From Eutreptiella sp. 'Long Island Sound 2002' (lineage: Eukaryota; Euglenozoa; Euglenophyceae; Eutreptiales; Eutreptiaceae): a stretch of 64,000 nucleotides of DNA. Positions 13,940-61,545 of this stretch are shown one piece after another. The stretch is taken from assembly GCA_964036045.1 (NCBI GenBank), contig OZ038386.1, positions 19,368,225 through 19,432,224 of the forward strand. The letters run 5' to 3'. A program made the translations under genes and the position numbers. Within the stretch, counting starts at the first letter, position 1. Each line of letters starts with the position of its first letter. The notes beneath the pieces were generated by a model. That model made no database searches. It saw only the letters and a program-made list of their open reading frames with translations, and was not told where the DNA came from.

Positions 13940-14010
13940 GGAACTTTCTTTGTGGAAAACGGGCTATTAACGCGTTTTTCAGCCAAAAAAAAAACGGGCT
14001 GTGGTGACCC
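13940..14010. repeat. AACGGGCT foldback-type repeat
   Basis: GGAAAACGGGCTATTAACG, CGTTTTTCAGCC, an A-tract and AACGGGCTGTGGTGA occur here. The same series is found at 61360-61545, with relatives at 62560-62690. Confidence 0.6.
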
Positions 14011-21211: not shown

Positions 21212-21324
21212 AGTAAGAAAAAGTGCTTTTCCATTGCTTTGAGGCATACTCTAGTTGTATTAGAGATGCACTGAGCATCCAGGCATTTCTATCTTAGTAT
21301 TGGTCCCACCAAAACCGGTGATAA
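21212..21324 (+). repeat. 5' LTR of LTR2, first piece
   Basis: Matches 49092-49204 with four substitutions noticed. The LTR continues at 38561 after LTR1. The split point is the ATAA at 21321-21324. Confidence 0.93.
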
Positions 21325-24300: not shown

Positions 24301-24339
24301 CGCAGCGTCCCGTGGCCGGCCCCCCGCGGGAACGCGTCA
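21325..24339 (+). repeat. 5' LTR of LTR1
   Basis: 3,015 bp, unusually long. It holds a TATA-like TTATATATCA at 21521-21530, a hairpin ATAGGAACTC/GAGTTCCTAT at 22171-22195, and a 228-codon frame at 21431-22117 that is also open in the 3' copy. Transcription of the element would start in this LTR; the start site is not visible. Confidence 0.95.
21431..22117 (+). CDS. Hypothetical ORF inside the LTR1 LTR (5' copy)
   Basis: 228 codons from ATG with ordinary composition, rich in Phe, Arg and Asn (FRQFLRFRSDTHCFDCWRL, FYTRNLNPNFSGCRNRIFDF). The copy in the 3' LTR (35648-36334) is also full length and differs at two residues (P to T, N to S). I recognise no family. Preservation is expected from the low LTR divergence, so it does not by itself prove selection. 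It could be an accessory protein, a captured gene piece or a chance frame. Confidence 0.3.
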   Translation: MYGRRPLTPGESVFRAVKPRIGNRCPASGDLYIRTSGINRVLFSYCFRQFLRFRSDTHCFDCWRLDRDFTVTASLTVYNGNFNAIRDEGSKDFRNCVDASAIFTFYTRNLNPNFSGCRNRIFDFDIPALDLTSFEWTYVLPYARINFPFILPSICLKDMGKTKLIREATCKGHISCRLRGMTIRKRGMYSQYSRRNLGSFICLAFPHVRASVMDHGQEGRVCVITLWP

Positions 24340-24743
24340 AAAGCGTTTCACCGCCGCGGGGTTACCCAGCCCTCGCGTGCCACTCGGGGCCACCAACCCC
24401 GAGCAGCGCGGCGCAGCTCGCAGCTCGCAGCGCAGCGCAGCGGCTCGCAGCGCAGCGCAGCGGCTCGCAGCACCACCCAGCGACAGCGTCGAGTTCGTCA
24501 CAGAGCCAGCAGCGCCGTCCAGAGCATCGCCCTGACCGCGCCGCGACCGTGAAGGAAGTGGACAGACCAGACCCATCGGCCGACCAGCAAGGCCGCGTCA
24601 ACCACTTCCACAACCACCGGCTGACCAGCACCAGCCGCACACCCAGTCCAGTGCTGCAGCACCCGCCTCAACAACCACCACCAGTTCGTTGAGTAGAACG
24701 AGTGCACACCAAGGACCTCAAGACCAACTATGCCCCCGCTGCC
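24340..24743 (+). other. LTR1 leader between 5' LTR and gag
   Basis: 404 bp, GC-rich, with a cluster of GCAGCGCAGCGGCTC repeats at 24405-24480. No TGG-starting site complementary to a tRNA 3' end is seen right after the LTR (sequence AAAGCGTTTCACCGCCGCGG), so the priming mode is unclear. Confidence 0.6.
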
Positions 24744-29063: not shown

Positions 29064-29106
29064 CGGAGCCCCTGCAGCCAAGGGCCCCGGCTAGGGCGGT
29101 CGCAGG
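29061..29106 (+). promoter_or_regulatory. Candidate UAG readthrough site between gag and pol
   Basis: UAG at 29061-29063 is followed by CGG, and the frame stays open straight into Pol. From about 29071 the bases CCTGC and AGCC can pair with GGCT (29089-29092) and GCAGG (29102-29106), giving a stem about seven bases after the stop. A stop followed by CGG with a stem a few bases downstream is like known viral readthrough signals. Whether readthrough occurs is inference. Confidence 0.55.
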
Positions 29107-32100: not shown

Positions 32101-34079
32101 AATGGGCTGGGTACATAGCCCTCCATCCCGTCACCGTCTGCACCGACCATCAGAGTCTGCAGTCGTGGCACAAGGAGCACGTGGACACCCCCTCAGGTCC
32201 CGCCTCCCGACGGGCAAGATGGCATGAGACCTTGGCCAAGTTCGACCTCACGGTTGTGTATATTCCTGGAAAGGATAACACCGTGGCGGACTGTCTCAGT
32301 AGGTGGGCCTATCCCGCCAGCAAGGGCATGACGGATATCTCTGCCCATGGCGATGAGGCTGAGACCGCTGAAGCCAAGAGAATCATCGAAATGGAGCGCC
32401 TGATGGAGGAGGAGGGTGCTAAATGCTTCGTCGTCATGGCTGCAGATGCCCCCCTCGCGTCGAGGGTGAGCAGAGCGGTCAGAGTACTCGCCCCTGATGG
32501 AGCTGAGTCCGACAAGCACCTCTTCCCGGAGTCTTGCCTCCAGGACGACTGGACCGACGACTACGCCAAGTCTGAGGCCTTTGCGGCCGAGTATAGGGCT
32601 GTGACCGACCCTGATGACGGGCAGAAGTGGCCAAAGGGGCTGACTGAGGAAGATGGCAAGCTCTACCGGAATGGTAAGCTGCTAGTACCAGAGTCCCGGG
32701 TGCTCGAGCTGTGTGAAGCTTGGCACCACCACATGCTGCACCCAGGGGTCAAGAAGCAAGCTCTTGACATGCAGCGTCGGTTCGAGGTCGACCATATCGT
32801 TCTCTACACCGCCATCAAGAAGGTCAGGAAGGGTTGCTCGGTCTGTCAGGCCTGCAATCCCGATAACCGGAACGTCAAGGGGGAAGCCCAATGGACCCCG
32901 GTTCCTGACCAGCCCATGGAGAGCGTGGCCATGGACGTCTTCTCCATGCCCGAAGTGCACATTGGCAAGGAGACCTTTGACTGTGTGGTTCTCTGTGTGG
33001 ACCGCCACAGCGGCTACGTTGTAGCCGTTCCGGCACGCAAAAAGGAGTTGCTCGCCAAGGAAGTGGCAGTCATGATGATTCGTCATTGGCTGACCGTCTT
33101 TGACATCCCCCGCACCATTTGCAGTGACCGAGGGCCCCAGTTTACTGGTGGCTGGTTCAAGGCTATGTGTTCCCTCATGGGAATACGTCATGCCAAGAGC
33201 GTCGCCTATCTCAGCCGGTCCAACGGCCGTGCTGAAGTGGCTGGACGGCAGCTGTTCGAGAAGCTGCGCAAGATCCACATCACCAATCCACGTCGGAACT
33301 GGTTTGAGGAGATGTGGCCTGCTCTGAAGGCCCATCATGACACCCCCACTCCGGGCGGTTTGTCCCCTCACCACATTCTGTTCGGCAGGGACCCACTGGG
33401 TAGGGGACTTCCCTTGTCTGGTGATGGCATGGCTATGGATGCCAAGGAATTCTTCGCGCGGCAAGAGCAAACGGCGCGGGACATCCGCCAGCAACTCGAG
33501 AAGGAGCATGCTGAGCGTCAGAAGTCCGCCCCGAGCTCGACAGCGCAGAAGTTCAGGGTGGGAGACCCGGTGTGGGTGATCAGACCCCGCCCTATGGGCA
33601 CCCACCGCACCAAGACCTGGTTCACACCCGGCGAGGTGGTCCGCAGGATTGGTGAGGGCACCTACCGCATCAAGGTGGGTCACGGACAGTTCCGGGAGCG
33701 CCACGAGAGTCAACTCCGTGTGCGGGAACCCGACCTCCGTGGCCAGCATGTGTCCCTGAGCTATGCCGCACATGAGGCCGATTCGGACGACGACTATGCT
33801 GAGCAGGACAACTATACAGTCGAGAAGATCCTGGCTCAGCGTCCGAAGGCCTCGGCACCCGGAGGTCTGGAGTTCAAGGTTCGTTGGCGGGGCTATGGGC
33901 CGTCCCACGACACCTGGGAACCCGTCTCCTCGTTCGTGCCGCGGGTCAATAGTCCTTCATGGAGTACATCCGCAAGCACAAGACCAAGATCCACGTTTCG
34001 GACTTGGCAGCACTCACCCGGGCGATTGCAGCCAGGGGTGCCTGATCAGCGCCCTGAGCTCTCCCCTGATGCGTCTTGA
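29064..34079 (+). CDS. pol: Pol polyprotein of LTR1 (protease, RT, RNase H, integrase, chromodomain)
   Basis: Open from the Gag UAG to 34079 (1,654 residues counted from a GTG at 29115). Aspartic protease motif DTGA near residue 133. An extra domain at about 295-392 (LALDAFSSGTSAHL, WIHCPRWDIPRAIAKI) lies before RT. RT contains WRLVVDYRGLN and the active-site FVDD at 777-780. RNase H begins near RTDASDYAIGAVLE (Asp 943). Integrase has the HHCC finger (from about 1204, ending CSVCQAC) and D1274, D1338 and E1374, the last pair spaced DD35E. A chromodomain at about 1567-1605 (YTVEKILA, FKVRWRGYGPSHDTWEP) probably directs insertion to heterochromatin. The last 30 or so residues are out of frame: the other frame gives MEYIRKHKTKIHVSDLAAL, so one base was lost near 33955. 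Confidence 0.95.
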   Translation, partial: RSPCSQGPRLGRSQDGDVGSAEPSQSGVNKHKGTAAGGRPGPAPSSGGGVRASEGTNPCTRPSFATKNVFDVLQDLSESIGGSPGPQLDAADGQPEPIVHDLHQSLVELLERPEILSLHAVRRVGRERQLHLKVRALCGEVEKVFDVLVDTGAQVSLVKAGLLPPECLTDSRKPVRLKVANGQYMVGGTKEAAIGLQFLNHRELSRPDLGKEILLHGRFYEAEMDWDMIVGYDFMMETDSGVLPAQASMTLYQDDQLSWLSSPEHHVECQWIHPERNQLEVAALDTEPTGPANQEYGVRPEVASRVVADLGASDLALDAFSSGTSAHLRVCEKYWSAQDSAWKKHWGPHQGLMWIHCPRWDIPRAIAKIRKDRSKAVLVVPMGCTEEESTRHWVASLTNMTLNKVVLPAGESVYQDAKGQPMPPQRWPTEFHYVDGGLDQADTTDFVCVNRIVAKPWRQCFAVPPVDIEESESEDPLTEEEWDLVQGYMDQPFHDWGNQREGKGQDRAWWEVDSIVSGSYDGNTFVQRVLDHLSSQDEPIGGNPPTYGDLFRGKTRDGPLGYLGRPPEPKASGVATPQVSSVVQVPGKAKAESDDCPKIQALRARLKQKYGDTFFSGKPVFPPPVRGPYGEAKIQLKQDPRVYRHREFALRGERKEAMEKILRDFIQRGWLEPCHSEWASPCFVVPKKVAGEWRLVVDYRGLNAQTQHDSYTLPLVEDMLQKQHRRRIFTVIDLKHGYHQMPLAEESRACTAMSTPLGPLQWKVMPMGVTNGNAAFQRMLENLLEPVRDCADPFVDDVIIASGDPSMSYEELLEAHERDVTRVLDLLVRHNFTGSSDKATIAVSEVVFAGHVVGNGQRKPIPGKVAAIEHWEKPKTVSELRAYLGFCNYYSGYIKMYAEYAAPMTTMLKGNREETKKGSKKALVWTAESDRAFEGMKQALLSAVGLHLVDPDRGFVLRTDASDYAIGAVLEQVLDDGRHVPVAFWSRVLAEGQRRTWTPREKEAYAIVMALRKWAGYIALHPVTVCTDHQSLQSWHKEHVDTPSGPASRRARWHETLAKFDLTVVYIPGKDNTVADCLSRWAYPASKGMTDISAHGDEAETAEAKRIIEMERLMEEEGAKCFVVMAADAPLASRVSRAVRVLAPDGAESDKHLFPESCLQDDWTDDYAKSEAFAAEYRAVTDPDDGQKWPKGLTEEDGKLYRNGKLLVPESRVLELCEAWHHHMLHPGVKKQALDMQRRFEVDHIVLYTAIKKVRKGCSVCQACNPDNRNVKGEAQWTPVPDQPMESVAMDVFSMPEVHIGKETFDCVVLCVDRHSGYVVAVPARKKELLAKEVAVMMIRHWLTVFDIPRTICSDRGPQFTGGWFKAMCSLMGIRHAKSVAYLSRSNGRAEVAGRQLFEKLRKIHITNPRRNWFEEMWPALKAHHDTPTPGGLSPHHILFGRDPLGRGLPLSGDGMAMDAKEFFARQEQTARDIRQQLEKEHAERQKSAPSSTAQKFRVGDPVWVIRPRPMGTHRTKTWFTPGEVVRRIGEGTYRIKVGHGQFRERHESQLRVREPDLRGQHVSLSYAAHEADSDDDYAEQDNYTVEKILAQRPKASAPGGLEFKVRWRGYGPSHDTWEPVSSFVPRVNSPSWSTSASTRPRSTFRTWQHSPGRLQPGVPDQRPELSPDAS

Positions 34080-35530
34080 GCGCTTGTGAGGCCGACGAAT
34101 CGTCCCTTACTTGCTTGCTGTCTTCCATCTTTTGGTGACAGAGTGGCCATATGCCCCCCCCCTGCTGAATCCAGAGGAGGATGGCCCCTCTCTTCTTCTA
34201 TTCGTCACTCACCCCCCTGCTGCATCCTTGGGAAACCAGGTAGGGCGACTGACCTTCATTTTTCTGAACTCTTGGGGCCTTGAAGCCCATACGACGTTGC
34301 GCAACGGATGCCGCTGTCATCGGCATTGCGAATTTTTGAGTGTGTGGTCTGGTTCCATGGCACTTGCGGAATCCAGACCAGTCGACGTGTGTCTCGAGAC
34401 TATATATGGCCTGAACTCAGGCGTTTTCCTGTCCACCCTCCTGCATTTGCCTTATCCTGACCGTGGCGTGGTTTGGCACTCTGTCCAGAGTGTGTTTACA
34501 CGCCTATTTACCCCGCTTGTTTTGCTTTTCTGCTCCCCAGGATATGTGCATTTGTATGTTACGATTGTCAGCCCATCACCGACAGATGGACTGTTTTTTC
34601 CCCCCCCCGAGGGGATGCGAATCGCAATACAGAGGCGCCCTGAGTCGCCGTTTACATGTTCATACACAGGGTCCAACCTGGACCAGTACCACATTACATA
34701 TTCTTCTGTTTGAGTGCCTGTGATACCGTGTTGCCCTATTCGCTGTGATGTGGAGATCCTGATGGCGCCAGGCGGGAAGCCCAGTTGCCTGACTACACTC
34801 CCAGCGGTCCGCGACTGTCAGTCCCTGTGTGAGCCTACCGATTCGCAGACGCACTTGCAGTCGGATGGCGGCCTCCGGTGCTCCTGACCTCGGTCAGTCT
34901 GCCTGGGAAACTGGTGGTTTGAGGAGTCGACGCCTCCGCCCACACTGCATGAGGACTCCCTCATGTATGGCCTTCGTGGTAATAGGGCGAGGGAAAAGAC
35001 GGCCTTGATGCCCGATCCCTTAAGGAGGAGCCCCCTTAAGATCCCTTAAGGAGTTCGGCTGTATCACTCTGGACTCGCGTCGTATGGATATGGACATGGT
35101 GCGCCCGAGGAGGGACCCGTGGGGACTCTCCCCAGTCGGCGGGCCTTGGGAAGCTTGGGGTAGCCTGATGGATCTTTGTGGTCGCTCTCGACCTGTGGGA
35201 CCACCTCGGTCGTCGTGTGTCGCCTATGTTGGCCGTGTATGCCACTGCCACTGTGGTGGTGACCGTAGCAGCCGGCACCCGGTGCGCCTGGTATTGGTTA
35301 ACGGGTCCTTTGGATGCCGAACAATCGCCGCCAGGACCCGGGACTTGATACTTGATACTATACATGTGCTATGAGCTTTTACAGCATCATACCTATCTTA
35401 CTGTGGGATTTAAAAGCCTTACCTGAGTCAGCCTAAAGTGAGGGTGTGACACCCCCCCCCCTTCAGGAAATGGTCCTGGGTACCCGCTGCCATGCGTAGG
35501 TGTTATCGAGCCCCCCCCAGGGTTTGCTCT
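34080..35530 (+). other. LTR1 3' untranslated region
   Basis: 1.45 kb between pol and the purine tract. A 200-codon frame at 34111-34713 (MLAVFHLLVTEWPYAPPLL) has some hydrophobic stretches but no signal, glycoprotein or other recognisable motif, and is not accepted as a gene. A GATCCCTTAAGGAG repeat occurs at 35013-35052. Confidence 0.5.
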
Positions 35531-35541
35531 AAGGAGGGGGG
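35531..35541 (+). promoter_or_regulatory. Polypurine tract of LTR1
   Basis: AAGGAGGGGGG directly abuts the 3' LTR, the expected place and composition for the plus-strand primer. Confidence 0.85.
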
Positions 35542-38500
35542 TGAAGCGGTACCCAGAACCCCATGGCTAGGTTAGGGCATACAACCGGTCTCCGGTCCAC
35601 TAACCCCATGTACGGAAGGGAAGACCGGTCTCCGGTCCACTAACCCCATGTACGGAAGGCGCCCGTTGACACCCGGCGAGAGCGTGTTCCGTGCCGTAAA
35701 GCCCCGCATCGGCAACCGATGCACCGCCAGCGGAGATTTATATATCAGAACATCAGGAATCAACAGGGTTTTATTTTCATATTGTTTCCGTCAATTTTTA
35801 CGCTTCCGTTCTGATACTCACTGTTTTGACTGCTGGCGGTTGGATCGCGACTTTACTGTAACCGCCAGTTTAACTGTTTATAATGGAAATTTTAACGCTA
35901 TCCGTGACGAAGGCTCTAAAGACTTCAGGAATTGCGTTGATGCATCCGCAATTTTCACATTCTACACTCGCAACCTTAATCCGAATTTTTCAGGATGTCG
36001 AAATCGGATTTTCGACTTCGACATCCCCGCACTTGATTTGACCTCCTTCGAGTGGACCTACGTGCTTCCCTATGCACGAATCAACTTTCCTTTTATCCTG
36101 CCCTCCATTTGTCTTAAAGATATGGGCAAAACAAAGTTAATTCGTGAGGCCACTTGTAAGGGTCATATCTCGTGCCGCTTGCGAGGAATGACAATAAGGA
36201 AACGTGGGATGTATTCACAATACTCCCGACGTAGTTTAGGAAGCTTTATATGCCTTGCGTTTCCACACGTGCGCGCTAGTGTAATGGATCATGGTCAAGA
36301 GGGTAGAGTTTGCGTTATAACTCTTTGGCCATGACATTGCGTGCGTTAAGATAACTTTCGAGTGTAGCGCGCAAGTGTTGGTGTTGCATAGGAACTCTCC
36401 TTGAGTTCCTATGAGCGATTGACACAAAGTTATGCCCTTGGAGGGGCATGACATATCGTTGGGGGAGCTACCTTTTGGGGCAATATGTGGTATGTGCCAT
36501 GTGTTGTATTGCGTGCCCATTTGGCGGGTTTGGCTGAGAGCGATGGAACCGCCAATGGACCTCATATTGTGCAAGCCCCTTCTCCATACTCCCCACGATC
36601 AATTGCAAGCCTAACCTTCGTGAAGGGAAGCTTGTGTGGCGATCCCAAAGCGATGCGTTGGGAGCAAGGTGTGTGTTTTGCAATTTTCCATATTTTCATG
36701 TGCCCACTTGGGAAGTAGCGCTCCTAACCTTTCAAGGCGCCCCAAGTGGAGCACATATGTGGGATCGAAGGTCATTGGTGTCAAGTCATTGTGTTTAGAA
36801 GGATTAGTTGATTGCACGATCCAATCCGGAGATATTATAATATAATTGTGTGCCTTTCAAGGCACTTTTGTGTGTCTTTGTACCAATTTTGCCGTTTTTG
36901 GCCCGTCATGATGTCAAGTGGCGAACATGCATCTCAACGTTGCGCTCAATTGACATCATGACCCAGGTATGTTATGAGGGTACATACTTCGGTCCCCAAC
37001 ATATCTTGGACCCGGCGAATAACTCCCACTGGGCTTGGCATACCGTGGCTGCCATGTTGGCGATTTGGGACTATCCCAAATCATGGGCTCACTTGGCGAC
37101 CCTGCCATTCCCAATACCGGAGGAGTTGGGCGACGCCCAAAAGATATGTTGGACACATATGACTTGATACCAATCCTATGGCACACTCCGGTCCGAGTCA
37201 GGCATGTGCCTCATTTGCCCCAACCATGAGTGTGCGCATTTTTGGCCATTTTGAGCAATTTTCCACTTTTGCTGCCCGCCGTGCACTATGTTGAGCCCAC
37301 CCGTGCACGCCGGACGCATGGACCAATGGACCATATATGACATGGGTGTTGTGTATATTGGTCCCCATGGTTCACACACCACGTGGGCGAAGCGGAGCAA
37401 CCTTCGTTAAGGCGCTAGCCCAAAATGAGTGTGGGCAATTTTGCCATTTTGGCATTTGTGGACCCAATTGGGACCGTCACCACGCCAAGTGGCATGGAGA
37501 TCTTTGAGAGCCAAGGGCATGGGAGTCTCCGTTGGACTCCCGGTGGATCGCGTATGGAATGGCGGATCCGATCTCCAAGCCGGCGTGGAGATATACTATT
37601 GGGAGCACACCGAATTTTGGCTCATTTCAAGCAGCCAAAATGACCCCATTTTGGGACCCCAATTTCCCCCTTCCGTGTGGTCAATTGGCGGCCCCAATTC
37701 TCTACGCCCATAGGGAGCCCGGACCTAACTCCAAGTTGTACACTCAGATATAAGTTCTAGGTACTGCCTCCTACCCTGTGAGCCATTGGCCTTACCTTGG
37801 CCGGGCGAGCCACGCGTGGGAATGACGCCAATTTTGGTGATTTTGGCATCATGACCCCACTTGACTCATCCGTGTTGCCCTGATGCCGGGACCTCAGAGG
37901 GAACCAGATTGGGTGAGGGCTCCAGGGAGTTCGTACTCGAAGGGCATAGGGTCAGTTGCCTCGTCCCTACCTCTGGCGGGTCCGCACGAGAGGTCAATTT
38001 TGGAGATTTTTGAGCTAATTCCAGTTTGGGCTGAAACAGCCCATTCTCAGCTACCAACTCCTGGGTGATAATGGCGGGGCCATATCTCTGGCTCAGAGAG
38101 GAGTTGGGACCTGCCGTTAAGGGAGCATAGGGAGCCACTGTCGGTTGGCCTTGGAGTGCCTTGGTTCCCAGGAACTCGCCTGTGGCTGGGCGGGACACCT
38201 CCCCTATTGGCAGGGTTTCAGGGTCCGGACTGAGCAGGGCATGGGTTGTGTTTGAGCCCCCGCCCCCACCAGCCACTGAGAGGGTCGGACCTGGGATTGG
38301 GATATGAGTTGGGACTGAGTGTCTATTGTCCCTTGATGCCCTTACCCCAGTCCAGTCTTAACCCCATGTGTACATATCCTGATGTGTTGCTGTACATACT
38401 TTCGTTCCCTTGTTGCAGAGTGGCAAGGATCCTGAAACGCTTTGTCACATGACATGAGCGCATTGATGCCCTTGTGAGCGTAGTGCTTTGCCTGCCTGCT

Positions 38501-38556
38501 CACTTGCGCGTGTCCACCGCAGCGTCCCGTGGCCGGCCCCCCGCGGGAACGCGTCA
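35542..38556 (+). repeat. 3' LTR of LTR1
   Basis: 3,015 bp, the same length as the 5' LTR, offset 14,217 bp, with about 20 substitutions noted by eye and no indel needed. It carries the same TATA-like site (35738-35747) and hairpin (36388-36412). Confidence 0.95.
35648..36334 (+). CDS. Hypothetical ORF inside the LTR1 LTR (3' copy)
   Basis: 228 codons, colinear with 21431-22117 and differing at two residues. Function unknown; same caveats as the 5' copy. Confidence 0.3.
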   Translation: MYGRRPLTPGESVFRAVKPRIGNRCTASGDLYIRTSGINRVLFSYCFRQFLRFRSDTHCFDCWRLDRDFTVTASLTVYNGNFNAIRDEGSKDFRNCVDASAIFTFYTRNLNPNFSGCRNRIFDFDIPALDLTSFEWTYVLPYARINFPFILPSICLKDMGKTKLIREATCKGHISCRLRGMTIRKRGMYSQYSRRSLGSFICLAFPHVRASVMDHGQEGRVCVITLWP

Positions 38557-38560
38557 ATAA

Positions 38561-39244
38561 CACGTTTTGACCTATGGAACCAAACACCCAATCAGGATAT
38601 GGAGTGGACCCCTTAATCCCCTTTCAATGTGAGGCAAATCGTCTTTTCCTGAGTTTACTGAGAACTGACATATCCAAGGTAGAGCCTATGAATTTATCTA
38701 TGTTTTTCCATGAATTCTTAGCTATCCTAGTGGTATGCACCCTAGGGGGCTGGGCACCTCTTCTTGAGAGGTCCTGGGTTCAATTCCTGGTCAGCCTAGC
38801 TAAGTAGGAAGATCCCATGTGACATGGCAGTGACCTCATCGCCACATGCCCTGCCACCTCAGCACATATGGGACCCAAAACAAAGAGTGCACATCTCCTG
38901 AGATGGCACTATGGAGAGAGAGTGACCATGGGGCAGTTTTCCAACTCTTTTTCCAAAACATTTCAGCTATCTTTGTGAATATGCATTCCGATTTGACCTG
39001 AGCTGTAGTTTCTGTGAATATCCAATCATCTTTCACTGTTTATACTGCAGCCCTTCATGCTTTGATCCTGATTATCTTCTCCTTGCACACTTCTGGCTTG
39101 GGCTATCCTGGATTGACTTGGATTTACTGTATTTCAACAAACAAAACCTTTTCATCTCCAAAAACAAGCAGCAGGACACCCTACAGCAACAGCAAGCAGC
39201 AGGATAAGCAAAAACACAGTGCTGAAACCACTATAAACTTTTCT
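38561..39244 (+). repeat. 5' LTR of LTR2, second piece
   Basis: Continues the LTR after the LTR1 insertion and matches 49205-49887 with a one-base length difference (TTTTT against TTTT near 38950). It ends ATAAACTTTTCT, just before the putative primer site. Confidence 0.93.
38718..38803 (+). ncRNA. tRNA-like module within the LTR2 LTR
   Basis: Complementary ends TTAGCTA and TAGCTAA enclose an A-box-like TATCCTAGTGG (38723-38733), an internal hairpin ACCTCT/AGAGGT and a B-box-like GGTTCAATTCC (38777-38787). Spacing suits a pol III type 2 promoter. The T-stem does not pair properly, so it is at best a degenerate tRNA-derived piece. A copy lies in the 3' LTR near 49358-49444. Confidence 0.35.
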
Positions 39245-39260
39245 GGTAGCAAGAGGCAGC
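39244..39260 (+). promoter_or_regulatory. Putative primer binding site of LTR2
   Basis: TGGTAGCAAGAGGCAG follows the LTR. TGGTAGCA is what would pair with the 3' end of an initiator-methionine-like tRNA; the match weakens after eight bases. Confidence 0.5.
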
Positions 39261-49091: not shown

Positions 49092-49887
49092 AGTAGGAAA
49101 AAGTGCTTTTCCATTGCTTTGAGGCATACTCTAGTTGTATTAGAGATGCACTGAGCATCCAGGCATTTCTATCTTAGTGTTGGTCCCACCAAAACTGGTG
49201 ATAACACATTTTGACCTATGGAACCAAACACCCAATCAGGATATGGAGTGGACCCCTTAATCCCCTATCAATGTGAAGCAAATCATCTTTTCCTGGGTTT
49301 ACTGAGAACTGACATATCCAAGGTAGAGCCTATGAATTTATCTATGTTTTTCCATGAATTCTTAGCTATCCTAGTGGTATGCACCCTAGGGGGCTGGGCA
49401 CCTCTTTTTGAGAGGTCCTGGGTTCAATTCCTGGTCAGCCTAGCTAAGTAGGAAGATCCCATGTGACATGGCAGTGACCTCATCGCCACATGCCCTGCCA
49501 CCTCAGCACATATGGGACCCAAAACAAAGAGTGCACATCTCCTGAGATGGCACTATGGAGAGAGAGTGACCATGGGGCAGTTTTCCAACTCTTTTCCAAA
49601 ACATTTCAGCTATCTTTGTGAATATGCATTCCGATTTGACCTGAGCTGTAGTTTCTGTGAATATCCAATCATCTTTCACTGTTTATACTGCAGCCCTTCA
49701 TGCTTTGATCCTGATTATCTTCTCCTTGCACACTTCTGGCTTGGGCTATCCTGGATTGACTTGGATTTACTGTATTTCAACAAACAAAACCTTTTCATCT
49801 CCAAAAACAAGCAGCAGGACACCCTACAGCAACAGCAAGCAGCAGGAGAAGCAAAAACACAGTGCTGAAACCACTATAAACTTTTCT
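49092..49887 (+). repeat. 3' LTR of LTR2 (uninterrupted)
   Basis: 796 bp. It contains the unoccupied LTR1 target (GGTGATAACACA near 49198) and the second copy of the tRNA-like module. It is followed by GAAAT (49888-49892), the right target duplication. Confidence 0.95.
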
Positions 49888-49892
49888 GAAAT

Positions 49893-51377: not shown

Positions 51378-51500
51378 GGTGATATACCGGTATATACCGC
51401 GGCGCCGGGGAATGCCGCGGTATATACTGCAGTATATACCGCGGCGCCGCGGTATATACTGCAGTATATACCGCGGCGCCGCGGTATTTTCCGGGAATGC
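51378..51500. repeat. Palindromic array of TATATACCGCGGCGCCGCGG units
   Basis: Alternating self-complementary blocks ACCGCGGCGCCGCGGT and ATATACTGCAGTATAT recur two to three times, with flanking diverged copies. The stretch can pair with itself in many registers. It separates the MULE end from the DUF6729 ORF. Confidence 0.85.
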
Positions 51501-51624
51501 CAGTATATGGTCGCCAGTGTACCAGTATTTGGGAACCGCTTTTTTTTTTCACCTGTACTGTTGTTTTTGATATACTTATCCCCTTCATTTTAAAATTTTC
51601 TACCATTTCATCACAGGCACAAAA

Positions 51625-52590
51625 ATGAAAGCATTACTGCTGTTGTTATTTTGGTTGTGGTTGACTCCACAAGCATGGGGAGGGGGATCCAAAAAGGACC
51701 CCCCATACTTCAGTAACTACAATATGGATTTCATCAAGAACACGCAGACCCATTGGGGAAGGATGGTGACAACCTGTGCCAATGGCAAGCCTGCCTTTTT
51801 TGTGTGGGATCCCTTGACACAATACAAGTTTCACTTGTCTTGCTCATGTGGAAAACCTTTGCGTGTCCATAAGTGGCACCAAAGGATTGCATGCCTCTTA
51901 GAGGAGAATTGCATTCTTCTCATGAGAGGCTATGCATGTCGGCATAAGATCAAGGGTGAAGAGGTAGGTTGTGGTAAAATATATCATTCTTGGGATATAA
52001 CTAGTCAATTGACACCCAAGCTACAAAGGGCATTCCCTTTTATATTATTTCAAAAAAGTGCTTTGCACAAGCAAGTCCTTCGACTTGTCTTGACAGAACT
52101 TTCAAAGGGTGTAAGCATGTGTGCAACAGCAGAACAAATGGCTTCTTTGTACGAAGGGAGGTACAATGAAGTAGTTCATCATGCTGAGAGGTATTTTCCA
52201 TCATCAGATTGGGGTGCACCTCCGAGTGAGTTTTTGTTGATAGCAATGATTGCCAAAGAGGCTGCTCGGGGAAAGGATTTCTATGATGCTTGCCTCAAGT
52301 CTCTTGGGGCACATAAACTATCAGCCGACCACACATTCAAAATTGCCAAGAAGTGTACGGTCAAAGTGGACCATCACTTTGAAAAACTTTTCGACAGTGC
52401 ATACTTTGTTCTCAATGAGCTAGGCATGGTCTTGGCTTGGAGATTCCTCGAGGATGCCTCCATTCCGGCTGACATCCTTGAGGAGATAGCTCAACGCTCA
52501 ACACTCATAGCTCAACACTGCCTCTGCTACCTATATGGAAGCAGTGTTAACCTACCTCATTCATTTATTCAATGTGAAGAAGTTCACTAA
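51625..52590 (+). CDS. DUF6729-type transposase-like protein, N-terminal half
   Basis: 321 codons from ATG. After a hydrophobic start (MKALLLLLFWLWLTPQAWG) comes GGGSKKDPPYFSNYNMDF, then a Cys/His-rich region (FHLSCSCGKPLRVHKWHQR, YACRHKIKG, VGCGKIYHSWD) like the zinc-binding DUF6729 domain of large algal and fungal transposon proteins. SADHTFKIAKKC near residue 243 looks like the first catalytic Asp strand of a DDE transposase. The second Asp and the Glu cannot be found: sequence after IPADILEEIAQRS runs out and the next ORF starts in another frame at 52535. The copy is probably internally deleted. A pyrimidine tract and ATCACAG at 51609-51615 upstream could be a splice acceptor. Confidence 0.6.
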   Translation: MKALLLLLFWLWLTPQAWGGGSKKDPPYFSNYNMDFIKNTQTHWGRMVTTCANGKPAFFVWDPLTQYKFHLSCSCGKPLRVHKWHQRIACLLEENCILLMRGYACRHKIKGEEVGCGKIYHSWDITSQLTPKLQRAFPFILFQKSALHKQVLRLVLTELSKGVSMCATAEQMASLYEGRYNEVVHHAERYFPSSDWGAPPSEFLLIAMIAKEAARGKDFYDACLKSLGAHKLSADHTFKIAKKCTVKVDHHFEKLFDSAYFVLNELGMVLAWRFLEDASIPADILEEIAQRSTLIAQHCLCYLYGSSVNLPHSFIQCEEVH

Positions 52591-53575
52591 AGCATGGGCA
52601 AACCCGCAGAAGTCGGGACTCACCCACGATCATCTCCGAAAGATAGCGCCCCTTTTTGCTGCGTGTTTGGAATGCAACATGCCAATTCCAACACGATATG
52701 AAGAGGCCTTAACTATTCACTCCATGTGGAAGTCAACTAACCCTATGGCCAAAGAATTTCCCAAGACATGTGACACAAGATTTGGGTTGCCTACTAGACA
52801 ATTGCCACCCGGGTTGTCAGAGGAGGCATTAAAGGATGTTGATGAGGGTGATAGTGAAGAGATTGATAAGGATTTAGAGACCGTTGCGGGTAAGATTTGG
52901 GATTGGTTGGAGGATGTTGAGAACCAATGTGATGAGGGTCCATCGTTTGATGAGGATGCAACTGCAGAAGAGGTCGCGGATTGGTGGGAGAAGTGGACGG
53001 GGGTTCGTTCTCACATAGCTCGCGAGTTCCGGGTGAATTCCTTATTTGATGAGCCTGCTACCAATGCGCATGGCCGACCAAAATGGTACCTCCCACAAAG
53101 TTCCGAACAGTTGCCATTGCTCACTGACCTTGCCCACAATGGGTTGCGCCAAATGCCCATTGAAGGCGATGGGAATTGCGCTTTTCGTGCCCTTGCCCAT
53201 TTCTTACCACATGATCATGCTACCCTCCGGCGCCTTGTGGTGGACGAATTGTTTGAAAAAAGGGGGGAGTATGAACCTTTTTACACGGGTGACAATTGGG
53301 AAGGTGCTGTTGAGGAGCTGCGTGCCGATGGTTTTTGGCATAATGATGTAGCCGATTTGGTGATGCTTGCAGCCGCAACCCTCTTTCAAAGGCCCCTTAT
53401 GATATTCACTGCCAACATGGGTGCAATACTGGCCACACCATTGTATGCCACGGGGCGGGAGGTTGAGGGGGACCCATTGCTTCTTACCTTCTACAGGGCA
53501 CACTACAATGTCGCTGTACGCGACAATGACCCATCACGGCACATGTACCAAGATAAAGGGTTGCATGTACTTTAA
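52535..53575 (+). CDS. OTU-family cysteine protease-like protein
   Basis: 346 codons from ATG, overlapping the previous ORF by 56 bases in another frame. The first 200 residues continue a transposon-like region (THDHLRKIAPLFAACLECNM) and an acidic stretch (DEGDSEEIDKDLE). The OTU domain starts near residue 205: MPIEGDGNCAFRALAHFL gives the catalytic Asp and Cys (Cys 215), and LLTFYRAHYNVAV gives the catalytic His (His 323). OTU enzymes cleave ubiquitin-type linkages, and such domains are carried by several large eukaryotic transposon families. The DUF6729 ORF before it and the SANT ORF 41 bases after it suggest one transposon cassette, possibly one spliced gene. Confidence 0.8.
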   Translation: MEAVLTYLIHLFNVKKFTKAWANPQKSGLTHDHLRKIAPLFAACLECNMPIPTRYEEALTIHSMWKSTNPMAKEFPKTCDTRFGLPTRQLPPGLSEEALKDVDEGDSEEIDKDLETVAGKIWDWLEDVENQCDEGPSFDEDATAEEVADWWEKWTGVRSHIAREFRVNSLFDEPATNAHGRPKWYLPQSSEQLPLLTDLAHNGLRQMPIEGDGNCAFRALAHFLPHDHATLRRLVVDELFEKRGEYEPFYTGDNWEGAVEELRADGFWHNDVADLVMLAAATLFQRPLMIFTANMGAILATPLYATGREVEGDPLLLTFYRAHYNVAVRDNDPSRHMYQDKGLHVL

Positions 53576-55770: not shown

Positions 55771-56020
55771 GGCAGCCTTACCGCCATTGCTATTGCACAA
55801 CGTACTTCACTGGCCGCGAATGGAATGAAGTATCTTTCAGATCATTTGGTTCCAGATATCTTTTGGGGCGATCTCGAAACCAATGACCGATTGCCACAAC
55901 CTGATGACCTCAATGCATACCTTTTTTCAAGAAGGGGCAGCTATCCTAGTGTAATTGGGTGCAGTCCAGCGCAGTACGGTGCAGTGCCGTATGATTTCAC
56001 CCCTAAAAGTGTTAGCTAGG

Positions 56021-56176
56021 GGCGAGATTTCAGGACGATAATCGTTACCTCCGTCTCGCGGGAGAGGTAACGATTATCGTCCTGAAATCTGGAGGGACCA
56101 ATCCAGAGGTAACGATTATCGTCCTGAAATCTGGGGGAACCAAGCTAGAGGTAACGATTATCGTCCTAAAATCTCG
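56021..56176. repeat. Left iteron cluster of element 1 (four copies)
   Basis: Copies near 56025 (inverted), 56071, 56108 and 56150; the last has CCTAAAAT in place of CCTGAAAT. Copies one and two face each other around CGTCTCGCGG and can form a hairpin. Bases 56177-56514 lead up to the gene and show nothing further. Confidence 0.9.
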
Positions 56177-56587
56177 GCCAACCGCCAAAGCACCCGGGGT
56201 TGTGACCAATCAATAAAACCGGCTTTTTGAGCCGGTTCCAATGAGCCTATTGGGTAAAATTTTCAATTTTCAACCGAAAAAACCGTTTTGGTAACCGAAA
56301 GTAACCGCGGTTGTCAATGAGGACATCGTCATGACAAGAGTAACAAATGACAAAATGCCGTATTTGCGTACAACAAGAAAAATTGGTTGCAAAAACAACC
56401 TCGCATCATCTTCTGGTGGTTTCTAATCATTTCCACAACAATTTTCGTCAAATTTGAGGCAAATTACTCGGCAAAACCCATATCTCCTCAATTTGTAGAC
56501 AATTTGTAGACATCATGTCCAAAAGGATGGAAAACATGTTTGATGCTGGGTTGCCACCACCATTGACACCTGTGTGAGCAGCTGTTC

Positions 56588-57088
56588 TTGTGCACCGTTT
56601 CTCGCCGTGCTTGCCACTCCCCTAACAAGGGTAGTGCGGCCTCTGATGCTTTGTCTATTGCTGAATCCGTGGATCTCCTTGTTAATGACGTTGTGGTGGT
56701 GTCTTGTGATTCAGAGTGGGACTATGATGAGCACCCATTGACACAGGTCTCACTCAAAAGGTCCTTTGCTGAGGCTAGAGAAAGCTATCGTACAGCAGCT
56801 TGGGCAGCACCCACAGCACCTGCAGATTCCCCTGTGAATCAGGACTTGTCCAATACTCCTCAACCATTTAGGAAGATGCGCCGACCGTGGTTTCCTCCTC
56901 GGACTGCGCCTCGCGAGAACATTTGCTACAAGTGTTCTACGGAAATTTTTGTTTTGCGGCCATTGCGTGGTGGTAACCGTGTTCAATGCAATGCTTGCAA
57001 TGCCCCTTTTCATGAGAAATGCTTCCATAGCTCTACTGTGAAGCCGGAGGATGGGGTGGGCCCTTGTTGTCTTGAGGCCAAGGAGTAG
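56588..57088 (+). CDS. PHD-like zinc finger protein of element 1
   Basis: 166 codons. A short upstream start at 56515 (MSKRMENMFDAGLPPPLTPV, stop 56575) resembles the start of the homologue at 60037 and is probably its first exon or a frameshifted N-terminus. The frame has an acidic part (SCDSEWDYDEHPLTQVSLK), a conserved ESYRTAAWAAP segment, and a C-terminal finger from Cys 113: C-x2-C-x17-C-x2-C-x4-H-x2-C, ending CC instead of C-x2-C. PHD fingers usually read histone H3 tails. No catalytic domain is present. It aligns with the element 2 protein through TQxSxK, YRxAAxAAP, PxPF and CYxC, with the same 17-residue spacing in the finger. Confidence 0.7.
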   Translation: MCTVSRRACHSPNKGSAASDALSIAESVDLLVNDVVVVSCDSEWDYDEHPLTQVSLKRSFAEARESYRTAAWAAPTAPADSPVNQDLSNTPQPFRKMRRPWFPPRTAPRENICYKCSTEIFVLRPLRGGNRVQCNACNAPFHEKCFHSSTVKPEDGVGPCCLEAKE

Positions 57089-57304
57089 GCCTATCTATCT
57101 ATCGATCTATCGCTAAATTTCAACTAACATGTGTATTGTTGCATGCTAACCCTCAAGAACCCAAACCTCACAACTAATGTGTACAGTGGGACTTTTTTTT
57201 CTCGTATGGGTTTTTTTCCATGCCCTATGTGGTTCTCAAGCTTTCACTCCCTTTGCTTTGCCTTGCACATGCTTCAGGAGGGATGGGGCATGTGGCGCTC
57301 ATAT

Positions 57305-57354
57305 GGAGGTAACGATTATCGTCCTGAAATCTCGCCCCTCTACCTAACACTTTT
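57305..57354. repeat. Right inverted repeat of element 1
   Basis: Reverse complement of 56005-56052 with one substitution and a two-base difference. It contains the fifth iteron copy. Confidence 0.9.
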
Positions 57355-57357
57355 AAG

Positions 57358-57461
57358 TAATCGTTAGTAGGTAACGATTATCGTCCTGAAATCTCGGCCC
57401 GTTCGCTTCGCTCCTACAGGGCCGAGATTTCAGGACGATAATCGTTACCTACTAACGATTA
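57358..57461. repeat. 43 bp perfect hairpin at the right end of element 1
   Basis: Arms 57358-57400 and 57419-57461 are exact reverse complements, loop 18 bases (GTTCGCTTCGCTCCTACA). Each arm contains one iteron. It is directly adjacent to the right inverted repeat. Confidence 0.95.
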
Positions 57462-57488
57462 TGTAATAAAATACTCAAAATGTACATG

Positions 57489-57922
57489 CTTGCACAGCCC
57501 TCATTCGGACCGGCTCGCACAGGTGCGAACGCCGGCCCTCACTCGGACGGTGCAAGTTTCTTTTGTCTTTTGTCTTTTGTTTTTTAAGTGGAGTGGTCGG
57601 GTGAAGCTATGGTACCCGGCGCCTTGGGTTGGCAACACCAATGTGCCACACTCTGCTGAGCGTAAGGGGGAGCTTGCTTGTGTTTCGCGATTCCTGACAT
57701 ATGTTATGGCCTCGTCCCGCATGGGTGACCATCGGAGGACCCATAAAGGGCAGGCGAATGAGATATGTGCCCGTGGGGTGCGGATTTTTTGCCGCTGCAT
57801 GCGACCCCCAAAGTCGTGATGTTAGCGGGTTGGGCTTTGTCACGGTGGCATCACGAACGGGCTCCCAACCTCTCGCTATACTCTTGGTTGAAAGTAGAGT
57901 GCACATAGTGCCGTAAACTAAA
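57489..57922. repeat. 434 bp direct repeat, copy 1
   Basis: Matches 58242-58675 (offset 753) with one difference noted (CCATCGGAGG against CCATGGGAGG). It begins with a hairpin whose ends CTTGCAC/GTGCAAG and inner TCGCAC/GTGCGA pair. The 109-codon frame across it is not accepted as a gene. Confidence 0.95.
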
Positions 57923-58241
57923 TTGCGAGATCTGGACGCACAGTCAGTGGCCCAGTAGCTCCGATGTGTGGTGTGTTTCCGACGTGGTGTATTATATTTG
58001 GGTTCCGACAAGAAGAACCCCACTTCAGGAGCTCCAAGATACCCGTAAGCTCTCTCTGAGAGCCGGTTGTGAGGTTTCTTGCTTGGTTTGGAATGATGTT
58101 ATTTGTACGCTAAGAACATGTTCCCTACAGGACAAACACCGTGTGTTCATGCTGTTTCCTGGGAAAGTCTTAGTGGCAAACTAATTTTGTTCATTTCTTG
58201 AATTTCATGAATTTTCCGACCCCCGCCCTTGCGGTGGGGGT

Positions 58242-58675
58242 CTTGCACAGCCCTCATTCGGACCGGCTCGCACAGGTGCGAACGCCGGCCCTCACTCGGA
58301 CGGTGCAAGTTTCTTTTGTCTTTTGTCTTTTGTTTTTTAAGTGGAGTGGTCGGGTGAAGCTATGGTACCCGGCGCCTTGGGTTGGCAACACCAATGTGCC
58401 ACACTCTGCTGAGCGTAAGGGGGAGCTTGCTTGTGTTTCGCGATTCCTGACATATGTTATGGCCTCGTCCCGCATGGGTGACCATGGGAGGACCCATAAA
58501 GGGCAGGCGAATGAGATATGTGCCCGTGGGGTGCGGATTTTTTGCCGCTGCATGCGACCCCCAAAGTCGTGATGTTAGCGGGTTGGGCTTTGTCACGGTG
58601 GCATCACGAACGGGCTCCCAACCTCTCGCTATACTCTTGGTTGAAAGTAGAGTGCACATAGTGCCGTAAACTAAA
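58242..58675. repeat. 434 bp direct repeat, copy 2
   Basis: Preceded by GACCCCCGCC/GGTGGGGGTC, a hairpin that also looks like a purine tract (GCGGTGGGGG). With copy 1 and the 319 bp between them the arrangement resembles a miniature LTR element (TRIM), but no target duplication or primer site was found. Bases 58676-59842 have no supported feature. Confidence 0.95.
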
Positions 58676-59859
58676 CTAAATGTGCTTTTCGAGTATCCAT
58701 TGTTTTGGAGCAAGCCATTCACTTCTTGTGCCAACGCTCGTTTGAGGTATTTCTTCTGTTCCAACGCTTGTCTCAAGTCTATTTCGCGCAAACCATTTCC
58801 ATCCTTTCATGCTTTGCATAATCAGAAGACCACCATAAAAACGTGCCCTCTGATGAGTCCGATGGCTTGAGTCTCGGGTCAATGGGCTTCCGCGTGGTCA
58901 CAACTTGCGCCCGTCCCAGAAATGCCACAGATTGAGTAGAAGGGTATTGGGCGTTGGTGCATTGGTCCGTTTACTTCCGATCTTAATGTTTCTCTACTCA
59001 CTTCGATGCAAACTCATCAATGGTTAAAGTCTACAACTTTTACGTGCCAATGCAGTGACCATGCTAACCATGCTAATCAAGTGTGCTAAAGTACGCGCCA
59101 CCATAATGGTTAGAGGTAGTAAAAGCCAAAACAAATTAGGTGCAATGGAACTTGAACAGCTTGAACAACTTGAATTCATCGTTCTAGTTCATTTCACCAT
59201 GATAACTAGGAATGCACTTTTGAGATGGCTATGCCACTCATGAAGCGCAAACGACCGAAGCAATTCCTAGATTCATGTACCGTGGCCGATCAATACCAGT
59301 CCTCTTTGCTTTTTTTTTTTCATCTAACTACAAAGGAAGTAAAAGGGTTAAGTGATTTGCACTATTGCCCATGTTACATAGTCTTGCATTGTGTCGTGAT
59401 CATTGATATGGTACTTTTGTTTCCAGGCTGTGGAGGACGACGCTCACTTGACGGACTAGCTGCTATTTACGCCAAGCGGATGGTGCACCGTCGTCCTCTC
59501 AACCCCTTAAGCCGAGCCTTATCATGATGATTTTGAATGCACTTGTGCTTAGAATGGTGGAAGTTTTCTCCCGTATGGCAATCCTTGAAGTGGACTAGTT
59601 TGTAGTAAATTGGATGGTTGGATGCCCATGGCTCCTCGGAGGTCACCGATGCCATCCAAGAATTTTTCGTCCCTTTCAAAGTGAGCAAGAGTATGAAAAC
59701 AAAGGAGCGATGTGCTTTCATTTGTGCCACTATTGATTGGTGGAATCCATTTTTGGCTCCCGTTTCCACCACTAGGGATGGCCTCGAAGTTGGGAGTTCA
59801 TTACACTAGCTTTGCTCTACCGTTGCCTAGGACACGCCCAATTATATCCGCTATCGGTC

Positions 59860-59995
59860 TCACAATTTCTTTGCAAAGAAATGCTATCGCCGACCCTCCT
59901 GGCGATAGCATTTCTTTGCAAAGAAACGCTAGGGGGTAGCATTTCTTCGCAAAGAAATGTTAGGCGATAGCATTTCTTCGCAAAGAAATGTTAGT
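59860..59995. repeat. Left iteron cluster of element 2 (four copies)
   Basis: TTTCTTTGCAAAGAAA or TTTCTTCGCAAAGAAA cores near 59866, 59910, 59942 and 59972. Copies one and two face each other around GACCCTCCT. Confidence 0.93.
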
Positions 59996-60036
59996 GTGCA
60001 TTTTGTTCCCTCTGTGTTTACTAGAGTAGCACAACA

Positions 60037-60994
60037 ATGTCCAAGAAAGATTCCAAGGTTTCTGAGGCACAATTGCCCACGCCACCCCGTGTAGAGCAAT
60101 TCATTGGTGTACTTCAAGAATGCAAAGATAAGAAAGAAGACACCAAGGAACCTATCAATAGCAACATGTTTGAGGATGACTCGGATCATGAGGATCAAAT
60201 CGGAAAACCCAAGAACACCAAGAGAACGGAGTTGGTAGCCCTCAATGTAGCCATGGAGTTCCAAGAAGTCTCGGCTAAACCCTCCCCAAACCAGAGATAA
60301 AAGCCGAACCTTGCCCAAAACCACCACAGAACCCTTCACCAATGAAAGTGAAACTTGAGTCTCCCCAAGAGATGGACAATCGTCAAGTAAGTATTTATAC
60401 TATCTCTGATGATGATTTGCTGAGCTCACATTCTTGCGATGTGTTGAATGCTTCTATGGTTTCCTCTAAGCTTTCCTTCGGAGATGAAGCAAATGAGTAT
60501 GAAGAGTTTCCTCCGACTCAATTGATGATGATTTGCTGAGCTCACATTCTTGCGATGTGTTGAATGCTTCTATGGTTTCCTCTAAGCTTTCCTTCGGAGA
60601 TGAAGCAAATGAGTATGAAGAGTTTCCTCCGACTCAATTGTCTGAGAAGGGGGATGTGTTTGCCTCACTTGCAGAAGGTATCAATGAATATCGTGATGCG
60701 GCTTTTGCCGCCCCACCTAGTGAGGAAGGTGCAGCACACAATCAGGTGTTTGAAGACATGCCTAACCCCTTCACAGCAGCAAAGAAGCCTAAAAAGGCCC
60801 CATGTAGACCCAAGGTGGAACCAAGTGTATGCTATATGTGTGATGAGCCGATCCCTAGGAAACGTGACACTATTGCTCTTCAACCGGTGTCATGTGATGC
60901 ATGCCGTGCAACCTACCACCTTCGGTGTGCCAAGTTGACTCGAGTGCCTCGTCATGGGTCATGGATTTGTGAAAGCTGCACCATGACGCCGTAG
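60037..60994 (+). pseudogene. PHD finger protein of element 2, two frame breaks
   Basis: ATG at 60037 (MSKKDSKVSEAQLPTPPRVE) opens a Lys/Glu/Asp-rich N-terminus that stops at 60300. The coding sense continues in another frame (IKAEPCPKPPQNPSPMKVKL) from near 60285, within a CCTCCCC run. A 116 bp tandem duplication (60407-60522 and 60523-60638) then shifts the frame again. The last frame, 60533-60994, carries PPTQLSEKGDVF, EYRDAAFAAP and a canonical PHD finger: C-x2-C-x17-C-x2-C-x4-H-x2-C, ending WICESC. GTAAGT at 60387 could be a splice donor, so part of the break may be an intron. A chromatin-reader role follows from the family. Confidence 0.65.
60407..60638. repeat. 116 bp tandem duplication inside the PHD gene
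   Basis: Two adjacent copies starting TGATGATGATTTGCTGAGCT. 116 is not a multiple of three, so the frame is broken. Confidence 0.95.
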
Positions 60995-61149
60995 TTCTTC
61001 CCTATTTATGGCTAAGAGGTAGGAGCCATGTGGTAGCCATTCCGCCTCCGAATGTGCGGGGTGCCACGACAAACAGTGACGTTTCGCAACTCAACTTGAC
61101 TTCTTTACCCCTCTTGATGTCAATGTCTTGGGAATGCGGGTTTTGCCAT

Positions 61150-61302
61150 GGAGGGTCGGCGATAGCATTTCTTTGCAAAGAAATTGTGAGACTTCGATAG
61201 CGGATATAGTGAAACGCTACCCGATAGCGTTTCTTTGCAAAGAAATGCTGGGGCCCCTACCCCAGCATTTCTTTGCAAAGAAACGCTATCGGGTAGCGTT
61301 TC
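61150..61302. repeat. Right inverted repeat and 43 bp hairpin of element 2
   Basis: The inverted repeat 61150-61208 is followed at once by hairpin arms 61211-61253 and 61260-61302 with a six-base loop (CCCCTA). Three iteron copies are included. Confidence 0.93.
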
Positions 61303-61357
61303 CTGTATAGACTCCGTAAGCTAATTCGTGACCTGCTGCTAATGGCTCGCTATTCTT

Positions 61358-61545
61358 TGATGGAAAACGGGCTACTAACCCGTTTTTCTGCAAAAAAAAA
61401 AAAGCGGGCTGTGGTGAGCGCACCATAACCCGCTCATTTTTGGCACAAAAAGGGGGTGAAAAAGCCCTCTTTTTGTTCTCCTTTTTTTCAAAAAATGGGT
61501 CTTCTAGCCCGTTTATTTTTGGCGAAAAAAACGGGTTTTCCGGCG
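61358..61545. repeat. AACGGGCT foldback cluster, left
   Basis: Several AAACGGGCT / AGCCCGTTT units separated by A-rich runs; relatives at 13940-14010 and 62560-62690. Bases 61546-62560 between the clusters have reverse-strand open frames (61614-62033) with His/Cys-rich composition but no recognisable domain. Confidence 0.6.

Follow-up and report, generated by a model that had tools for sequence, protein, structure and literature searches.

Two elements within a 64,000-nucleotide stretch of the genome of Eutreptiella sp. 'Long Island Sound 2002' (contig OZ038386.1, forward strand, positions 19,368,225 to 19,432,224; hereafter the window) pose the question of how one arrangement of terminal repeats, hairpin and PHD-finger gene can be kept when the repeats themselves are unrelated in sequence. 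A reading made from the sequence alone had proposed a transposon family in which each lineage has its own recognition repeat. The present analysis showed that both loci, elements A and B, are deletion derivatives of multicopy transposons. They are non-autonomous members of a DNA transposon family that carries a gene for a tyrosine recombinase (YR)-like protein with a PHD finger, and that was probably moved by YR recombination.

Element A, of lineage A1, lies on the forward strand at 56005-57468 (1,464 bp). Its left subterminal inverted repeat (56005-56052, forward strand) includes the first iteron, and 35 nt of it (56018-56052) are 100% complementary to 57305-57339 in the right subterminal inverted repeat (57305-57355, reverse strand). 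The iteron, with the core AACGATTATCGTCCTGAAA, is present in seven copies: four on the left (56028-56171, starting at 56028 on the reverse strand and at 56069, 56111 and 56153 on the forward strand) and three on the right (57311-57446, starting at 57311 and 57373 on the forward strand and at 57428 on the reverse strand). The right-end hairpin (57358-57461) has perfect 43-nt arms (57358-57400 and 57419-57461). Element B, of lineage B1, lies on the forward strand at 59844-61309 (1,466 bp). Within its left subterminal inverted repeat (59844-59903, forward strand), 43 nt (59857-59899) are 100% complementary to 61150-61192 in the right repeat (61145-61208, reverse strand). Its palindromic iterons, with the core TTTCTTTGCAAAGAAA, again number four on the left (59866-59988, starting at 59866, 59911, 59942 and 59973) and three on the right (61168-61283, starting at 61168, 61230 and 61268), and its right-end hairpin (61211-61302) also has perfect 43-nt arms (61211-61253 and 61260-61302). 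On re-checking, the seven iterons of each element, their 4+3 order and orientation and the inverted ends were all as the sequence-only reading had described them.

Copies were counted in the 2.28-Gb genome that contains the window, and each count is a minimum. With up to three mismatches allowed, the 26-nt A iteron was found at 577 + 557 places; the 22-nt palindromic iteron of B, with at most two mismatches, was found at 478. The reversed A control and the B control each gave none, which shows that neither repeat is a product of chance. Twenty stretches around A iteron clusters, picked among the first 100 listed iteron places, were sampled, as were eight short A-iteron loci (four overlapping ones were set aside), six stretches around A-like recombinase-type genes and eight around B proteins; loci are cited here by number (L012 and so on). 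Multicopy matches with common ends bore out the proposal of a transposon family with non-autonomous copies and clean borders. A copies start (TT)AAAAGTGTTAG, with the same left boundary in nearly all of them, and end ...TGTAATA where the right end is kept (TGTGATA in L026). B copies start (TT)ATATCCG and end ...CCTGTATA (...CTGTATA), and the ends of element B are those of L047-L054 where those copies are whole. The borders given above for both window elements were taken from the ends of copies elsewhere; those proposed earlier, 56005-57461 and 59843-61302, were near but a few bases off.

Alignment with longer copies revealed how the window genes came about. Element A aligned with the full gene of L030 and L026 up to 56562 and again from 56617, leaving a 5' remnant (56515-56562, forward strand; MSKRMEN...) and a 3' remnant (56617-57088, forward strand) that comprises an acidic, proline-containing linker and the PHD finger and is homologous to the C-terminus of protein P0059. 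Element B was 98.6% identical to L047 over window positions 59842-60277 (L047 360-795); the alignment stopped at 60277 and resumed at 60284, with 1,021 bp (L047 796-1816) missing. Its 5' remnant (MSKKDSKVSEAQ..., 60037-60277) and its 3' remnant with the PHD finger (60284-60994) are both on the forward strand, the latter broken by a 116-bp tandem duplication (60407-60638). Since the alignments break and then resume, each window gene, in its own lineage, is what an internal deletion has left of a longer gene.

The same deletion forms were found at other places. Judged by match coordinates, and with the window copies included, the A remnant (query 376-531) accounted for 21 of 85 genome matches and the B remnant (query 103-259) for 9 of 150. 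Alignment confirmed the A form in L012, L027 and two copies within L028, and the B form in L051, L052 and L054 and, in part, in L053. The L027 copy was 99.8% identical to element A over 1,468 nt, while L052 and L051 were 99.93% (1,392 nt) and 99.86% (1,408 nt) identical to element B. Overall, the window copies and their sister deletion copies were 99.4-99.9% identical, which indicates recent movement. Further lineage B match ranges (for example query 58-259, 106-259 and 128-259) turned up at numerous places, a pattern that would fit frequent formation of deletion derivatives followed by their amplification. Some A copies were found in compound arrangements: in L016 (3592-5836) copies in inverted orientation were joined at their tails, and tandem blocks of approximately 4.4 and 3.8 kb (L028 2037-7802 and L029 3873-9001, respectively) each contained an A copy with identical left flanks. 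In the window, a 434-bp direct repeat (57489-57922 and 58242-58675, 99.8% identical) adjoins element A on its right.

The longer relatives carry one gene of approximately 560-650 codons, in which an N-terminal region is followed by a divergent YR-like domain, a linker rich in proline and acidic residues and a C-terminal PHD finger. In A copies of approximately 2.9 kb (L017, L026) the gene runs upstream into this longer protein, and open frames of 653 (L032, L035), 622 (L047-L049), 619 (L050) and 564 (L033) amino acids were identified. The gene lies between both element ends in L035 (2,535 bp), L047 (2,296 bp), L048 (2,327 bp) and L050 (2,355 bp), so that complete elements (lineages A3, B1 and B2) span 2.3-2.5 kb; L049 has no right end. 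The search for an autonomous partner therefore yielded candidates for both lineages (L035, L047-L050). The earlier statement that no transposase is present applies to the window copies, which are non-autonomous, but their PHD gene proved to be the 3' end of a longer YR-like gene. No reverse transcriptase or DDE gene was found among the long open reading frames (ORFs) of the complete L035, L047, L048 and L050 elements, short ORFs not having been scanned.

The suggested homology of the PHD-encoding ORFs of the two window elements was upheld (35% identity over 110 amino acids, E = 1e-15). Against a Pfam cut-off of 24, the PHD finger scored 26.0 bits in element B and 24.4 in P0001; P0002, P0061 and the full B proteins of L047, L049 and L050 fell under it, as did the C1/PHD matches of the zinc finger of element A. 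Public PHD proteins of both kinds were numerous (38 matches among 59 candidates and 19 among 53), and the longest of these relatives had a helix-turn-helix (HTH)-like N-terminus. A PHD gene with an HTH of its own was considered and rejected, as the HTH-like N-terminus of P0001 and P0053 corresponds in alignment to the last part of the YR-like domain, tyrosine included. No relatives of P0001 were found in viral contigs.

Assignment of the central domain to the YRs is likely and is based on distant sequence similarity. In a profile-profile alignment, six family members were compared with ten reference YRs from E. coli K-12 and phages (FimB, FimE, IntS, XerC, XerD, Cre, lambda Int, HP1 Int, IntD and IntR). 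The alignment covered 167 columns with a score of 29.5 (P = 0.003), a score that none of 200 column shuffles reached (maximum 22.1) and that exceeded that of the reversed control (17.7). A smaller profile agreed with this (27.3, compared with a maximum of 18.9 in 60 shuffles). The putative Arg-I (TGFR aligned with HGFR), Arg-II (SIARR with HMLRH) and Tyr (VY with WY) motifs were in register with those of known YRs. Consistent with this alignment, the integrase family phrog_1 of the PHROG database matched four of seven proteins (L024, 6.1e-5; L050, 6.3e-5; L049, 0.0044; L047, 0.0068). The GTMKN, K[DS][IM][AG]R (Arg-II) and YH (Tyr) motifs were present in all nine frames checked, and Arg-I in eight of them.

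Comparison of copies and lineages clarified which parts of the blueprint are kept. The sequence-only reading had the layout strictly conserved; this did not hold, since the exact 4+3 arrangement was found in just 5 of the 22 copies tabulated and the right hairpin varies in length. These 22 rows, which depend on a three-mismatch cut-off, comprise both window copies together with short derivatives and full-length elements; four left iterons were present in 17, and the number on the right ranged from one to four. Spacing was nearly equal in the two elements, with left iterons 24 and 65 nt from the end in A and 23 and 68 nt in B, and the last right iteron 40 and 41 nt from the end, respectively. 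The proposed turnover of the repeat on a similar blueprint was supported by A and B and by the unrelated-looking iterons of lineages C and D. Examples are GGTAACGATTATCGTCCTGAAATCTC for A1, GTTAACGATTATCGTCCTGAAATCTC for A2, CATCTAACGATTATCGTCCTGAAAACTC plus a variant for A3, GATAGCATTTCTTTGCAAAGAAACGCTA for B1, GATAACGTTTCTTGGCCAAGAAATGTTATC for B2, CCGTGGCATATGCCACGGATATC for C and AAAACGGGTTAATAGCCCGTTTT for D; by inspection, the iterons appear unrelated among the four lineages and to have drifted inside A and B. The end TTATATCCG is common to B and C. Protein identity within lineages was 78% (A1-A2), 64% (A1-A3), 61% (A2-A3) and 78% (B1-B2), and between lineages it was 36-38% (A-B), 38-45% (A-D) and 31-32% (B-D). 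A lineage C element with CCGTGGCATATGCCACGG iterons (L018 2473-3715) directly abuts the right end of an A copy. Repeats of the AACGGGCTACTAACCCGTTTTT type at window positions 61353-61417 and 13946-14007 (89% alike) resemble lineage D iterons (L033, L021) and are perhaps lineage D remnants.

The ends are asymmetric, with a subterminal inverted repeat on both sides and a stem-loop on the right only. The perfect hairpin with 43-bp arms that had been reported was present in both window copies, but elsewhere the stem was as short as 9 bp. The minimal right end is a 9-5-9 inverted repeat (9-bp stem, 5-nt loop) in both lineages: TAATCGTTA-GTAGG-TAACGATTA in A (L012, L020) and GAAACGCTA-CCCGA-TAGCGTTTC in B (L047, L052-L054), with L013 one base longer. 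In both window copies the 23-nt minimal unit had been lengthened by exactly 20 nt, which accounts for the equal 43-nt arms. The long hairpin seems dispensable, because copies with the short form (L012 and L052, each 99.9% identical to the window copies) resemble the window elements no less closely than long-hairpin copies do. When L032 (878-3333) was compared with L035, the gene-bearing interior was inverted between the subterminal repeats, with the stem-loop end lying 5' of the gene and the plain end 3' of it; this inversion could have resulted from recombination between the inverted repeats.

Flanking sequences were counted after removal of duplicate flanks and right-end inverted repeats. 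The left flank was TT in 32 of the 35 unique flanks (23 of 26 for A, 9 of 9 for B), compared with a background of 7.6% of dinucleotides in the sampled loci; the exceptions were L031, L025 and the window's own A copy (CT). The right flank started with A or G in 22 of 24 cases (14 of 16 for A, 8 of 8 for B), and the next base was A in 20 of 24. The insertion target is therefore TT^R, a preference common to A and B despite their different repeats. Two empty sites were identified, L013 for the insertion in L012 (91% alike) and L027 for that in L026 (87% alike). Each has the sequence TT^GAAA, and target sequence is not repeated at either filled site, so the check for a target duplication that had been called for gave none in two of two sites. 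No empty site within the sampled loci matched the flanks of six B copies, L031, L035 or either window copy. As a possible direct repeat, the AAAA at the start of A elements was compared with the right flank, which read RAAA in 8 of 16 cases; the ATAT of B elements recurred in none of 8.

Taken as a class, these elements are best read as Crypton-like YR DNA transposons with Helitron2-like ends, in which catalysis and site recognition would be tasks of the encoded protein. The YR would bind the palindromic iterons and the 9-5-9 bp core of the right-end inverted repeat, bring the two ends together and excise the element as a circle. Recombination of this circle into TT^R sites would leave no target duplication. 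A possible role of the PHD finger is to anchor the complex on modified histones, and deletion copies such as elements A and B would be mobilised in trans. With the splitting of lineages, the recombinase and its iteron would have changed together, so that the blueprint was kept and the repeat was not.

Several observations weigh against this reading. No YR family was matched in scans of Pfam and NCBIfam, the Pfam scans gave no match to DUF3504 or DUF3435, and sequence searches of the PDB returned nothing usable. The phrog_1 family did not match the proteins of L030, L033 and L035, and two of its four matches were weak. The hhalign probability for the profile alignment was just 10.5%, the profiles being thin, and an AlphaFold model of P0061, built from a shallow 12-row alignment, had a pLDDT of 31.7 and gave no fold support. 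The histidine of the HxxR motif is not conserved, the aligned position being D or S, and the open copy L048 has Gln at Arg-I, which means that an open frame does not imply activity. No circle junction was seen, and the empty sites number just two, both in paralogous repeats only about 87-91% alike. In addition, as described in PMC3212892, Cryptons (CryptonF, S, A and I) have no terminal inverted repeats or long direct repeats and often have terminal direct repeats of 4-6 bp; because inverted repeats are present here, the family was not filed as Crypton.

Other mechanisms were considered. Helitron2/HINE was the first reading of these ends and was demoted once the YR-PHD gene was found in the longer copies. 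According to PMC4067079 and PMC5148889, Helitron2/Helentron elements share with the present family asymmetric terminal inverted repeats and a 3' stem-loop; both insert at TT without target duplication, at TT^R here and not within TT. A rolling-circle element of this type, its ends processed by a Rep/Helicase from elsewhere and its YR-PHD gene a captured passenger, is nevertheless quite unlikely, because the complete 2.3-2.5 kb elements (A3, B1, B2) have the YR-PHD gene as their sole long-ORF gene and because this gene was kept across lineages at 31-45% identity, above expectation for a passenger. No Rep/Helicase was found among the long ORFs of the complete elements, a result that covers the elements and not the rest of the genome. 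The family also differs from Helitron2/Helentron and HINE/DINE-1 in encoding a YR-like PHD protein in place of Rep/Helicase and in having much longer inverted repeats and hairpins. Even less can be said for a classical cut-and-paste DDE transposon with terminal inverted repeats and a captured PHD gene, which we regard as very improbable: such elements often have inverted repeats and deletion derivatives, but neither empty site showed a target duplication, left flanks end in TT and right flanks start with R, the inverted repeats are asymmetric and complete copies have no second long gene.

A further alternative retains the YR but has it act on a single strand at the folded right hairpin instead of through double-strand synapsis. 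Single-strand YR recombination at folded sites is known from integron attC and phage CTX attP, and in both lineages the right end can form a stem of 9-43 bp and the gene is YR-like. The inverted repeat is equally well explained as a double-strand core site, since usual YR sites, as given in PMC3212892, have arms of 11-13 bp and a spacer of 6-8 bp, near the 9-5-9 arrangement; we consider the single-strand mechanism unlikely, if somewhat less so than rolling-circle transfer. A broader proposal, which we hold tentatively as a minority possibility, is that the family represents a superfamily of eukaryotic YR transposons separate from Cryptons and with asymmetric, Helitron-like ends, in which the right hairpin would be the recombination site, possibly as a folded single strand, the lineages would make up a natural series of recombinase/site pairs whose sequences have diverged until unrelated, and the PHD reader fused to each could steer insertion by chromatin state.

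The preferred reading, YR-mediated movement of a Crypton-like element, also has to be set beside known systems. CACTA (En/Spm) elements have repeated subterminal protein-binding motifs in both orientations, a feature in common with the present family, but differ in having a DDE transposase and 3-bp target duplications. Like Cryptons as PMC3212892 describes them, which have a YR as the recombination gene, the family consists of eukaryotic DNA elements with a probable YR gene, no reverse transcriptase and non-autonomous derivatives. It differs in its long asymmetric inverted repeats (perfect over 35 nt in A and 43 nt in B), palindromic iterons and terminal hairpin, in a C-terminal PHD finger where Cryptons have GCR1_C or no domain, and in giving no Pfam YR match. 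Starships (PMC12506042) are eukaryotic DNA elements mobilised by a YR, as is proposed for the present family, and likewise have empty insertion sites; they are large, cargo-bearing elements with a DUF3435 captain, whereas the present elements span 2.3-2.5 kb and did not match DUF3435. A search of the literature on Cryptons and YRs with PHD fingers or such end features returned no YR-PHD fusion in the listed titles and the opening lines of the listed abstracts, which is no proof of absence.

Other repeats were noted in the window. A Gypsy-type element (21325-38557) has 3,016-bp long terminal repeats (LTRs) that are 99.3% identical and a chromodomain polyprotein; it apparently interrupts the 5' LTR of another gypsy element, whose LTR lies in pieces at 21212-21324 and 38557-39245 (compared with 49092-49888). 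At 51390-53575, palindromic 32-bp repeats (GCCGCGGTATATACTGCAGTATATACCGCGGC) lie just upstream of ORFs that match DUF6729 and an OTU protease; this may be a further element whose iterons are palindromic.

What is described here, then, is a set of DNA transposons that encode a YR-like protein fused to a PHD finger and have asymmetric inverted repeats, together with palindromic repeats that appear specific to each lineage. Eukaryotic YR elements are described as relatively rare and little understood (PMC4157794), and the boundaries of Cryptons as hard to define (PMC3212892). One genome here provides many recent copies with sharp ends, a TT^R target, empty sites, both long and deleted forms, and four or more iteron lineages; because of these many sharp-ended copies and multiple lineages, site recognition and a joint change of recombinase and site are directly testable. 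Helitron2-like ends around a different class of enzyme are a warning for annotation from end structure alone, and a PHD finger carried by a recombinase would serve as a module for chromatin-guided integration.

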